DNA of 64,000 nt from Flavisolibacter longurius. GTDB lineage: Bacteria; Bacteroidota; Bacteroidia; Chitinophagales; Chitinophagaceae. The stretch is taken from assembly GCA_013327885.1 (NCBI GenBank), contig JABUMY010000005.1:1-64000 (forward strand), written 5' to 3'. The notes under the pieces were generated by a model. The model saw only the letters and a program-made list of their open reading frames with translations. It searched no databases and was not told where the DNA came from. Each line of letters starts with the position of its first letter. Positions within the stretch are counted from its first letter, which is position 1. The translations under genes and the position numbers were made by a program. This document shows positions 12,012-60,333 of the stretch, in pieces.

Positions 12012-12153
12012 GGCTTTTAACGAACTCTTCAGGAATTTTGTATGGTATACTTCTCCTAAATCTATTTCGCAGGCAAGGCCTTTTGTAGGCTATCTTTAAA
12101 GAAAGGCGCAAAATACAGTTTTGCACCGGTGAAGTAAGAAGAATTTAATCTCG

Positions 12154-12211
12154 TTCATATAGCAAGCAATCGTTAGATCAACCCGCTGTTTCTACGGTGG
12201 GTTTTTCTTTT
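12154..12211 (+). ncRNA. Type A small-RNA-like element, copy 1
   Basis: The conserved leader CATATAGCAAGCAATCGTTAG (12156-12176) is followed by the hairpin ACCCGCTG-TTTCTA-CGGTGGGT (12181-12202) and a T-rich run. The leader is shared with 22412-22468 and 23218-23275, but the stem sequence differs with compensating changes. It lies on the strand opposite to both neighbouring genes, so it is not a terminator for either. A near-consensus -7 box CAGTTTTG is at 12116-12123. Confidence 0.6.
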
Positions 12212-22327: not shown

Positions 22328-22361
22328 TTGCCTGTATACCCCGCAAGGCGTCTTACATTTG
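22328..22361 (+). promoter_or_regulatory. Promoter of the type A small RNA, copy 2
   Basis: TTG (22328-22330), a 23-nt spacer and TACATTTG (22354-22361), exact Bacteroidota consensus. No protein-coding frame follows on this strand; the next plus-strand structure is the small-RNA-like element ending at about 22468. Confidence 0.7.
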
Positions 22362-22367
22362 TACCAG

Positions 22368-22468
22368 AAGCGAAAATAACAAGGTCGCTTCGCACAAAAA
22401 AGAACAAACATTTTTCATATAGCAAGCAATCGTTAGCGTCCGCTGTTTCTACAGTGGACTTTTTTTTG
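22368..22468 (+). ncRNA. Candidate small RNA of about 100 nt (type A, copy 2)
   Basis: Predicted to start about 7 nt after the TACATTTG box. A first hairpin GAAGCGA/TCGCTTC (near 22368-22392) is followed by an A-rich spacer, the conserved leader CATATAGCAAGCAATCGTTAG (22416-22436) and the terminator GTCCGCTG-TTTCTA-CAGTGGAC (22438-22459) with an eight-T run. Both neighbouring genes run on the minus strand, so this is an independent transcript unit. 51 bp (22412-22462) are repeated exactly, in inverted orientation, at 23223-23273. I do not recognise an Rfam family. Confidence 0.7.
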
Positions 22469-22492
22469 TCCCTATAGAAAAGAAAAGAAATC

Positions 22493-22702: not shown

Positions 22703-23217
22703 AGTTCTAAATTACAGTTTGCCCCTGAAAAAGAGTCCCTTCCGTTTTCCACAAAGAATGGACAGCAAAAACCTTTTTTTACACATAGAAACTATCAAAC
22801 ATTTCAGAAAAAAAGTTGCTTGAATAGAAGACTCATTTTCGTTTCAAAAGGAACCGGTGTAACGAAAATGTTTTACCAACTAAAGAAATAAAATAGCAAT
22901 GGCTTGGTAAAATAAGCTTACAGATGAAAAACAAATTCTACCCTATTCTTTCCTCCAGGTCAACAGTTTCCGTTATTCCGTTTGAAAAATAATCAGCGAA
23001 AAAGGGCTTTTGTAAAATCCATTCCTGTTATTGAGTAGGCAATACAGATAAGCATTTTTTCCCGAAATGGAAAAAACACTTCTGAAGGCAAAAACCAGAT
23101 TAAAATAAAATCGCTTGTTTAGAAGCCTAAGGCTTAGCAGATTAAAGACTTTGCAGAAAGAAGTGTAAAAGAAATTTTCACAAATTGTTTGTTTTTCAAA
23201 AAAAGCTCTATACTTGT

Positions 23218-23275
23218 AAAAGAAAGTCCACTGTAGAAACAGCGGACGCTAACGATTGCTTGCTATATGAAAAGT
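23218..23275 (-). ncRNA. Type A small-RNA-like element, copy 3
   Basis: On the minus strand, the leader CATATAGCAAGCAATCGTTAG (23269-23249) and the hairpin GTCCGCTG-TTTCTA-CAGTGGAC are identical to copy 2 over 51 bp (23273-23223), followed by a weaker T-run (TTTCTTTT). No exact -7 box was found upstream. Confidence 0.6.
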
Positions 23276-39645: not shown

Positions 39646-39840
39646 ATGTTATCCATGAAAAGAGTAGAAATTCTTTTTGACAGCCTAAACAAACTCTGCC
39701 TTTTTAAGCGCAGCAGCGAGGCCAAGGACTGCCAGATGGATTTTGAAAAAAAGATTCTCAGGGGCAGATTCCCCGAGTCGGAAATCAACATGGCTGTACT
39801 TGTTTTCGGCGCCACCATTGTTGAATCAATCACTGCCTGA
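39646..39840 (+). CDS. Small hypothetical protein (64 aa)
   Basis: 64 residues (MLSMKRVEILFDSLNKLCLFKR...); a second ATG at 39655 would give 61. Basic N-terminal half with one amphipathic helix, then SEINMAVLVFGATIVESITA, a hydrophobic end. Supported by an exact -7 box upstream (39607-39614) and an intrinsic terminator downstream (39879-39905). No family recognised. The 3' region carries a stretch complementary to the type B small RNAs. Confidence 0.55.
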   Translation: MLSMKRVEILFDSLNKLCLFKRSSEAKDCQMDFEKKILRGRFPESEINMAVLVFGATIVESITA

Positions 39841-39933: not shown

Positions 39934-39989
39934 CAAAAAAAAGCCTCTTCTAGAAAGAAGAGGCGCAACCAAAACTAACTGCTTATAAG
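39934..39989 (-). ncRNA. Candidate small RNA of about 55 nt (type B, copy 1)
   Basis: On the minus strand, the leader ATAAGCAGTTAG + TTTTGGTTGCG (23 nt, identical to the copy at 44073-44095) is followed by GCCTCTTC-TTTCTA-GAAGAGGC and eight T residues. A full promoter stands directly upstream (39995-40024), placing the start at about 39988, right at the conserved leader. The neighbouring genes are on the other strand. This is the clearest case for a free-standing RNA gene in the family. Confidence 0.75.
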
Positions 39990-39994
39990 AACAC

Positions 39995-40024
39995 CAAAGG
40001 TAAGCGCATTTAATTAAGTTCCAA
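39995..40024 (-). promoter_or_regulatory. Promoter of the type B small RNA
   Basis: TTG (40024-40022), a 19-nt spacer, TACCTTTG (40002-39995), all on the minus strand: exact Bacteroidota consensus. The only structure downstream is the small RNA ending at 39934. Confidence 0.8.
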
Positions 40025-40103: not shown

Positions 40104-40292
40104 ATGAAGAAGACCAGTGTCCTAAAGTTTAACTCTCTGGCAGATCTGGCCCATTTTCTTAAAACAACCGAGCCGGAAAGCTACACCATCAACACCGTCC
40201 GGCTTACCCTGACCGCCACTATCTCGCCGCTGGAACATGCTGTTGCCCTTACCGATTTCAACGCCCAAGAAATAAAAACCGCTTCGGCGTAA
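40104..40292 (+). CDS. Small hypothetical protein (62 aa)
   Basis: 62 residues (MKKTSVLKFNSLADLAHFLK...), with a plausible strand-helix start and a helix-strand end (PLEHAVALTDFNAQEIKTAS). Protein-like composition and start with an ATG after TATG/GAAG context. No exact promoter or terminator seen. No family recognised, so existence is moderately supported only. Confidence 0.45.
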   Translation: MKKTSVLKFNSLADLAHFLKTTEPESYTINTVRLTLTATISPLEHAVALTDFNAQEIKTASA

Positions 40293-43938: not shown

Positions 43939-44259
43939 GAAGTTTCCTTTATTTAATTGATAGAATTATCCGTTAGCGCTTCATTTTTTCAATTACCGTA
44001 ACAAGCTGATAACAACATTTTAAGTTTCCCGGCTTTACTTTTACATCTCACAATAGCAGTAACAATTTTCTCATAAGCAGTTAGTTTTGGTTGCGACCCC
44101 TGTTTCTACAGGGGTCTTTTTTTGTTTAACAGTCTGTACTGGCGGTCTTTACATTAACAAGACGCTGACAATACAGCGGTTATCATTGCCGTTTTAGAGC
44201 AGGAATTGAGTGCTTATTTTCAGGCACTTGCTTTGTAACAAACTAATAAAAGAATAACC
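43939..44259. other. Intergenic region between kefC and the DUF4136 gene
   Basis: 321 bp. Besides the type B element at 44071-44124 I see no gene. The stretch 44125-44259 should hold the promoter for the lipoprotein/barrel gene pair, but no exact -7 box was found. Confidence 0.4.
44071..44124 (+). ncRNA. Type B small-RNA-like element, copy 2
   Basis: The leader ATAAGCAGTTAG + TTTTGGTTGCG (44073-44095) is identical to the type B copy at 39934-39989. It is followed by GACCCCTG-TTTCTA-CAGGGGTC (44095-44116) and seven T residues. The stem sequence is entirely different from copy 1 while the loop is the same. The only upstream -7 candidate, TACTTTTA at 44036-44043, is one base off consensus, so this copy may instead be the 3' end of the kefC transcript. 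Confidence 0.6.
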
Positions 44260-60100: not shown

Positions 60101-60277
60101 ACCGGATACCTTCACGTCAACCCGGAGGCGGGAAGACTTGTCGTTGTTGAAATATCCGTTTGATTTCCTGGTTCCGTCATTGGCAAGTGCGGGCTGCACA
60201 AGGAGCAGGCTTGCCAAAGCAGATGTACAAAGGCAGGTATTGATCCACCTGCGGCCGGGCGTACAACTTTTAATCAT
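57131..60277 (-). CDS. susC: SusC/RagA-family TonB-dependent transporter
   Basis: 1048 residues from ATG 60277; a TTG two codons earlier is ignored. Signal peptide of about 35 residues, then a carboxypeptidase-regulatory-like domain (VSGIVRDRLGAPLAGVTVQV followed by VGNAAITTTTNAEGRFTI), the region SMDQVVVVGFGRQRKVSVVG with a TonB-box-like VVVVGFG, the plug (ANVNTMLAGRIAGVIGVQRS; ILVDGIERSINNIDPQDIAS followed by FTILKDAAGTAVYGVRGANG), and a 22-strand barrel ending in ...SFSIGVNLDF with terminal Phe. It imports oligosaccharides across the outer membrane with SusD. Two LacI-type operators lie just upstream. Confidence 0.97.
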   Translation of the reverse strand: MIKSCTPGRRWINTCLCTSALASLLLVQPALANDGTRKSNGYFNNDKSSRLRVDVKVSGIVRDRLGAPLAGVTVQVVGNAAITTTTNAEGRFTITAPENSSLQFSHVGFKPQVLVVNMLQLEVVLEAVEGSMDQVVVVGFGRQRKVSVVGAQSTINPEELKLPVANVNTMLAGRIAGVIGVQRSGQPGRNSADIWIRGISTFGSGSSAPLILVDGIERSINNIDPQDIASFTILKDAAGTAVYGVRGANGVIIITTKTGKIGKPKVNIDYSEGIVSFTKVPDMADAKTYMEAANESFTTRGQTAKYSSEYIQRTLSGEDPELYPNVDWFDALYRDHGKVRRANVNVSGGSDFLRYYGSVSYFDETGLLKTAQLQNYNTDLRFRRFNITSNINMNITKSTKLDLGIRGFFTNNNRPAIETQDIFGSAMTTPSTEFPLEYTGGFVPGRSANGGFRNPWADLTRRGYATEFNNSVFSNLRLTQDLSSIINGLSATTMFSFDASNGLTITRSKREDTYAPDAAQPRKPDGSLNLQRTYTGSGNYLSYSRGNSGNRRFYSETSLNFTRNYGKHRVGGLALFYTDDYQNAFAGDFQSSIPERYLGLATRVTYSYDDRYFIEGNVGYNGSETFAPENRYGTFPAFGIGWVPSNEAFFEPVKNVISYLKFRYSDGLTGIGRIGGRRFAFLTLLSDGVNGYRFNRNLDNMSGINVTDYGVTAVWAESRKQDLGIEIKTLNNNLSLIVDLFREKRTGIFLQRQSIPTYLGLTNVPPGNLGVVENKGVDATLEYTQQIGAVNMSVRGNITYNKDVLLENDQPKQLYDWMDRTGHNILGRWGYVAEGLFSSQAEIDASAVPGDKSKVLPGDIKYKDLNGDGLINNYDRTYIGRGDVPNLVFGFGFNLGYKGFNLGALFAGQRGADIMLAGEAIHPFANGAGLSNVYSNITSRWQEGKDNSNVFYPRLANGEDWNRNNVQESSWWLREADFIRLKTLELSYNLPKTWVGRWTQNATIYFQAINPLTFTNFDLWDVESTIGSGNGNRYPNTKSFSIGVNLDF

Positions 60278-60284
60278 AAGCAAA

Positions 60285-60292
60285 CAAATTTT
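60285..60292 (-). promoter_or_regulatory. Candidate -7 box of susC
   Basis: AAAATTTG on the minus strand (60292-60285), one base off TAnnTTTG, 7 nt before ATG 60277. If used, operator 1 (60297-60312) falls between the -7 and -33 elements. Confidence 0.4.
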
Positions 60293-60296
60293 TTTC

Positions 60297-60333
60297 GCTA
60301 AAACGTTTTAGCGTGTGGCTAAAACGTTTTAGC
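60297..60333. promoter_or_regulatory. Tandem LacI-family operators upstream of susC
   Basis: Two identical perfect 16-bp palindromes, GCTAAAACGTTTTAGC, at 60297-60312 and 60318-60333. Centres are 21 bp apart, two helical turns, with spacer GTGTG. The central CG with A/T flanks is typical of LacI/GalR-type sites. They lie between susC and the LacI gene, 20 bp before the susC start. Confidence 0.9.

Follow-up and report, generated by a model that had tools for sequence, protein, structure and literature searches.

A multicopy family of short RNA genes in Chitinophagaceae with predicted complementarity to SusC start-codon regions

On the minus strand of Flavisolibacter longurius contig JABUMY010000005.1, positions 39990-39936 are laid out like a free-standing small-RNA gene, one that belongs to a multicopy RNA family of the Chitinophagaceae. 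It lies in the first 64,000 nucleotides of the contig, the whole stretch that we analysed and call the window (Table 1). It is very probable that the 90-base stretch at 39934-40024 is a genuine gene encoding a tiny regulatory RNA, whose 5´ end fits the start signals of SusC-type genes better than expected by chance. The initial annotation of this locus had recognised neither the multicopy family nor the target class, of which the latter is probable. As to function, we favour, from sequence comparison and with some confidence, the reading that these are trans-acting RNAs which would block SusC translation at the start codon, in the manner of the FopS RNAs of Bacteroides.

Direct reading of the minus strand confirmed the order that had been described, TTG, N19, TACCTTTG, then TCTTATAAGCAGTTAGTTTTGGTTGCG, the terminator hairpin and a T8 run. 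The hairpin with TTTCTA and T8 is as reported, with nine base pairs counted instead of the eight of the original description. The 5´ end of the predicted RNA was derived from the -7 box and its 3´ end from the T run. In the available text of a study on Flavobacterium, the sigma-A promoter box occupies -12 to -5 (PMC9723704); placing the box likewise puts the start at 39990 and gives an RNA of about 55 nt, so that the length proposed earlier holds and the proposed start, 39988, moves by two positions. No real-looking ORF is antisense to the RNA, as had been claimed, and no downstream gene is in reach on the same strand. With its own -7 box and terminator, a conserved leader and a covarying stem, the view of a free-standing short RNA gene is thus well supported, and its label, type B, agrees with the division of the family into two leader types. 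Two small ORFs, 40104-40292 (+) and 39646-39840 (+), flank the gene and are conserved in genome G006; neither has a Pfam match.

Co-conservation of promoter and leader, which the initial annotation had offered as a check, was found in part. The G006 orthologue retains the -7 box TACCTTTG and has lost the -33 TTG, and two copies in genome G009 also have the box, as TACCTTTG or TACATTTG. Paralogues showed other promoters or none. Among the first 88 of the 96 aligned copies, 21 have TAnnTTTG upstream (the survey of copy neighbourhoods took the first 90), compared with 0/88 in the reverse-complement control and a mean of 5.4, at most 14, in shuffles.

Table 1. Coordinates of the RNA gene, its sister copies and the predicted SusC target in the window
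Feature	Position	Strand	Remarks
-33-like TTG of promoter	40022..40024	-	direct reading; lost in G006 orthologue
-7 box TACCTTTG, sigma-A type of Bacteroidota	39995..40002	-	present in G006 orthologue
predicted small RNA, type B, about 55 nt	39936..39990	-	covariance model match, 86.1 bits
first leader half UCUUAUAAGCAGUUAG(U)	39974..39990	-	predicted seed against SusC start codons
terminator hairpin, 9 pairs, loop within TTTCTA	39943..39964	-	covaries across family
T8 run	39935..39942	-	direct reading
second type B copy	44050..44124	+	model match 44065-44129; terminator 44095-44116; 5´ end uncertain
type A copy, TTTTCATATAGCAAGCAATCGTTAGCG	22411..22467	+	terminator 22438-22459; weak model match 22411-22472; CATATAGCAAGC at 22416-22427
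type A copy	23214..23274	-	weak model match 23213-23274; leader motif at 23258-23269
type A copy	12151..12210	+	CATATAGCAAGC at 12156-12167, terminator next; ends approximate
predicted target, start region of SusC-type gene 60277-57131	60270..60297	-	ATG 60277-60275, TTTGCTT before ATG

Terminator patterns by themselves occur at chance frequency (28 found, 26.7 expected in the 19 kb scanned). The locus was judged to be more than chance because it is conserved, the leader being kept and the stem changing across aligned copies. Searched at the DNA level, all 17 other genomes of the genus proved to have matches with E values of 8e-8 or better. Among 23 aligned copies 19 columns are invariant, almost all of them in the leader, and the hairpin sequence is variable. 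A covariance model built from these copies finds matches in 18/18 genus genomes, 2 to 38 in each at E<=0.05, the weak ones being partly chance; the F. longurius genome has seven at E<=1e-5. Family-wide, 105 of 147 Chitinophagaceae genomes and 71 of 100 genera have a match. Class-wide, 5 of 295 genomes do, all five Chitinophagaceae, under stricter filters that may miss weak members. Records containing a 20-mer of the leader are likewise mostly from Chitinophagaceae (at least 119 stretches, 80 of them named), and CTCATA precedes this 20-mer in 115 of 123 copies.

The type B leader, with the consensus UCUCAUAAGCAGUUAGUUUUGGUUGCG, is nearly invariant, while the hairpin varies by compensatory pairs. 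Of the stem cells in 96 model matches, 90 of them distinct, 98.4% are paired, compared with 74.8% in shuffles, and double changes in the stem number 172 cells in the 90 distinct copies against 35 in shuffles. A covarying stem next to a leader conserved in sequence is the pattern of a trans-acting RNA with a terminator. The leader may also form a weak GU-rich hairpin masking part of the seed; no covariation was seen for this hairpin within type B. Rfam has no match in the window at gathering threshold, and a permissive search gave sub-threshold matches only, for this copy, for the loci of nine other copies and for type A. Among open-licence papers, as judged from listings, none was found to describe an RNA of this kind from Chitinophagaceae.

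The sister RNA, type A, has the leader CATATAGCAAGCAATCGTTAG and a hairpin of the same style as type B; three copies lie in the window and the leader recurs in the genus. Its motif CATATAGCAAGC was located 41 times, spread over 15 of the 18 genus genomes (reversed pattern, 4), and 25 of 30 such loci that we opened, from 14 of the 18 genomes, are type A RNAs. Upstream of the copy at 22411..22467, TACATTTG is present at 22354-22361, so its 5´ end may lie further upstream. No stretch of the viral contigs contains the type A 21-mer.

The copies stand in diverse genomic contexts. One of them, recurring in the genus and the family, lies between prfA (confirmed) and a VanZ-like gene, confirmed in one case, that runs towards it. 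Within 2.5 kb of the 20-mer, a VanZ-like neighbour was seen for 78 of 123 copies and a PrfA-like one for 35, many stretches ending before a neighbour could show. In the genus, the prfA-vanZ copy has a doubled leader unit, AAAGCAGTCAATTTT ahead of CTCATAAGCAGTTAG, and upstream of it GGCA-N6-(T/A)TG(C/T), that is GG-N10-GC with the spacing of -24/-12 elements. Such an element precedes 18 of 20 copies in the prfA-vanZ genus group (19 loci, put together by leader and context) compared with 3 of 68 other copies, at a background of 0.017 per search window. Family-wide it precedes 45 of 75 VanZ-flanked and 16 of 43 other copies (reverse-complement control, 7/118), and the F. longurius genome has two Sigma54_DBD matches. 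The prfA-vanZ copy, kept across Chitinophagaceae, thus mostly appears to have a sigma-54-like promoter.

The second type B copy in the window has an extra upstream unit, AUAGCAGUAACAAUUUU ahead of CTCATAAGCAGTTAGTTTTGGTTGCG, and no clear TAnnTTTG box. Ten further copies begin 2 to 23 nt past the stop codon of an Hsp20-like ORF, six of these ten ORFs being confirmed by Pfam; this hsp20-linked type B variant, GCAGTTGGTTTTGGTTT, is 3´UTR-derived (loci L067, L069, L076, L079, L083, L084, L091, L093, L097 and L099). Loci L094, L096 and L106 (about 1530, minus) have in common an upstream block, CCCCAACTTCGTAGCTCTGCTCGAGA, perhaps the promoter of another sigma factor. At loci L070 and L072 of genome G013 copies are clustered within 2-18 kb, several of them, by eye, beside response-regulator-like genes.

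Copies are also found in viral contigs, where 15 stretches hold 17 copies of the 20-mer, preceded by CATA or CATAT in 11 of the 17. A phage integrase gene adjoins the RNA copy in five of the 15 stretches (L227, L228, L229, L235 and L239; five of five tested). This adjacency suggests that the RNA gene may serve as a phage attachment site. In named phages and plasmids, searched at nucleotide level, the RNA was not found.

Next, we considered possible targets. FopS (family of paralogous sRNAs) of Bacteroides thetaiotaomicron comprises, in the available text of PMC11697453, 14 paralogues of 65-70 nt with a single-stranded 5´ stretch holding the seed, then a terminator, and with canonical sigma-ABfr promoters. 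According to the same text they block SusC translation near the start codon, binding and repression having been shown; an RRM-1 protein, RbpB, and presence in phage are reported as well (PMC11697453). The F. longurius genome, with 11 matches to RRM_1 and none to Hfq, presents the FopS setting, and SusC genes, with 48 matches above cut-off in this genome, were therefore chosen for the target test.

The first half of the leader, CAUAAGCAG in type B and CAUAUAGCAAGC in type A, is complementary to SusC start-codon regions; start regions such as TTTGCTTATG and GATTGCTATATG are the complement of CAUAAGCA and CAUAUAGC. In the first test, done before any motif had been seen (26 SusC start regions of the own genome, 4 of 30 rows being dropped), 2 of 200 dinucleotide shuffles were as good as the type B leader and 5 of 200 as good as type A; with the first part of the leader removed, 89 of 200 were. 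All later tests followed sight of the motif, and four relatives were fetched after it had been noticed in the own genome.

TGCT occurs between -16 and +3 in 9 of 47 own SusC starts compared with 11 of 302 other starts (p=0.0004, post hoc), in 9 of 62 SusC starts of the four relatives (p=0.0025) and in 0 of 37 from three copy-less family members, where copy-less means no model match at E<=1e-6 under stricter filters and is no proof of absence. Among enriched 4-mers, TAAA and AAAC rank above TGCT; TTGCT reaches p=0.072 in the relatives, and GCTTATG, first seen in the own genome, is absent from the relatives (0/62) and present in 2 of 37 starts of the copy-less genomes.

Duplex energies, which ignore accessibility, point in the same direction. 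For the first 17 nt of the leader, SusC starts give lower values than other genes do, both in the own genome (47 SusC, p=1.5e-5) and in the four relatives (62 SusC, p=2.6e-7), with no SusC excess in the three copy-less genomes (37 SusC, p=0.56). The second leader half gives no pairing signal in own, relatives´ or copy-less genomes (p=0.61, 0.73 and 0.57). For type A, the first 18 nt fit SusC starts better in relatives (p=0.00031) than in the own genome (p=0.048), where the whole leader compared with other genes is weak (p=0.24). SusC starts were set by a hydrophobicity rule; the controls were starts of mechanical ORFs from a single 400-kb stretch. Rows dropped amount to 1 of 48 own SusC (no plausible start), 8 of 70 from the relatives, these 70 being the best-scoring part of the matches listed, and 0 of 37 copy-less.

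In a stricter test, the CAUA complement of the start codon was held, the remainder shuffled 60 times, and the excess over other genes (150 of the 302 controls) compared. The type B consensus was matched by 0/60 shuffles in the own genome, 2/60 in relatives and 28/60 in copy-less genomes; the letters of the 39990-39936 copy by 0/60, 5/60 and 35/60; type A by 0/60, 0/60 and 46/60. Against plain shuffles, copy-less SusC starts also rank low for one leader (3/100). Support for the predicted pairing of the first leader half with the start-codon region of SusC mRNA is statistical.

Most SusC start regions are without a long match to the leader. The SusC gene of the window ranks among the best predicted targets, its start at 60277 giving duplex energies of -17.6 with this RNA, -19.8 with the consensus leader and -19.5 with type A. 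Exact antisense of type A at start codons (GCTTGCTATATG), sought in the 30 opened loci and the window, was seen once, at the start of a 284-aa ORF that is no SusC. Long perfect complements elsewhere (rRNA, one main mRNA) were sought as well, with little found beyond the RNA copies themselves: a 14-nt search of the own genome allowing one mismatch gave nine matches, six of them copies (reversed pattern, eight). A 16-nt match in genome G022 turned out to be a stretch of other sequence with no hairpin after it. SusC starts of the copy-less genomes often read ..CGTTATG, with CGTT in 24% of 37 compared with 6% of 302 other starts; such starts (G022 regions L449-L467 and L379-L406) look as if matched to a different RNA.

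The likeness to FopS, as far as the available text of PMC11697453 goes, extends to several paralogous copies per genome, a single-stranded 5´ stretch (here with a possible GU-rich leader hairpin) followed by a Rho-independent terminator, an RRM instead of an Hfq setting, and members in phage or viral contigs. For SusC start regions as targets, binding and repression were shown there and are predicted here, with statistical support for the pairing. The differences are another taxonomic family, a sigma-54-like copy and hsp20 3´UTR copies here, and the R1 seed shared with GibS, which was not found here, the leaders being compared only via the related GibS model. On the best reading, the Chitinophagaceae RNA would work like FopS, and we do not claim membership. 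GibS / BTnc201 (RF04177) is itself a short Bacteroidota RNA with a similar-looking G/U-rich stretch, GUUUGUUUUGUUUG beside GUUAGUUUUGGUUG, but at 13.8 bits, with a gathering score of 105 for this model (E 4.3), it is no match. The Qrr sRNAs of Vibrio, of another phylum, are sibling small RNAs with a sigma-54 promoter, Hfq-dependent and acting in quorum sensing; by description, they resemble the present RNAs in sibling copies and sigma-54 promoter. Rfp18 of Flavobacterium psychrophilum is, like ours, a small, conserved RNA from this phylum for which mRNA targets are predicted; as described in the available text, it is set apart by strong folding, by protease targets and by pairing through its third stem-loop (PMC9723704).

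Other explanations have to be weighed. That a promoter-like and a terminator-like sequence met by chance is practically inconceivable: each element is common on its own, but conservation and covariation are family-wide, and stem pairing and double changes, compared with shuffles, refute a chance origin. That the RNA acts in cis, as leader or attenuator for a gene downstream of it, is highly improbable, and this reading was rejected. The copy at 44065-44129 does have a same-strand gene 131 nt on (44260, DUF4136 lipoprotein-like), yet downstream genes vary between copies, the 39990-39936 copy has no supported one on its strand, and at the family-wide copy the vanZ-like gene is convergent (the VanZ-like neighbours counted above).

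We also consider it rather improbable that the element has no regulatory function and is either a phage attachment sequence or a terminator that is mobile or was duplicated. Up to 38 weak-to-strong matches in one genome and the integrase genes close to five of the 15 viral-contig stretches would fit; against this, the unpaired leader is invariant, the stem covaries, promoter-like sequences are conserved, and 0 of 123 chromosomal copies lie near an integrase like those five. The RNA might instead mainly bind protein, with an RRM protein as sponged target or partner and SusC complementarity minor. For this speak the conservation of both leader halves with a pairing signal in the first only, the 11 RRM_1 matches, and the lack of any 14-nt complement standing out beyond the RNA copies; we think it unlikely, as the first half, for either of two leader sequences, does better than prefix-fixed shuffles in two independent sets. 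Protein binding as the explanation for the conserved second half alone is a guess.

Under the preferred reading of trans-acting SusC repressors, CAU of the leader (UAU in the 39990-39936 copy) would sit on AUG of the SusC mRNA, and the bound leader would block the initiating ribosome; of the roughly 48 SusC systems, some would in this way be kept silent. The likely partner would be an RRM protein and not Hfq. Copies behind different promoters might bring different signals to the same targets: sigma-54-like at prfA-vanZ, sigma-A-like at 39990-39936, and the hsp20 3´UTR. Tentatively, and with doubt prevailing, one may extend this to a network of sibling RNAs antisense to SusC start codons and the letters upstream, in which RNAs and SusC start sequences co-evolve lineage by lineage. 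Sigma-54 and heat-shock genes would provide its input, and phages would bring along members of it so as to switch off receptors at the cell surface. Were such co-evolution true, the copy-less G022 and relatives would be predicted to have RNAs beginning with CAUAACG.

Post-transcriptional control of SusC is known in detail only for gut Bacteroides. The RNA family described here is distinct in sequence, lives in soil and freshwater Chitinophagaceae and appears to be aimed at the same gene class as FopS; its sigma-54-like and hsp20-linked copies offer a way to reach the signals, and a list of candidate targets is at hand in the SusC start regions. If the proposal is true, it would suggest that Hfq-less Bacteroidota generally use start-codon antisense RNAs to choose among their dozens of nutrient systems.
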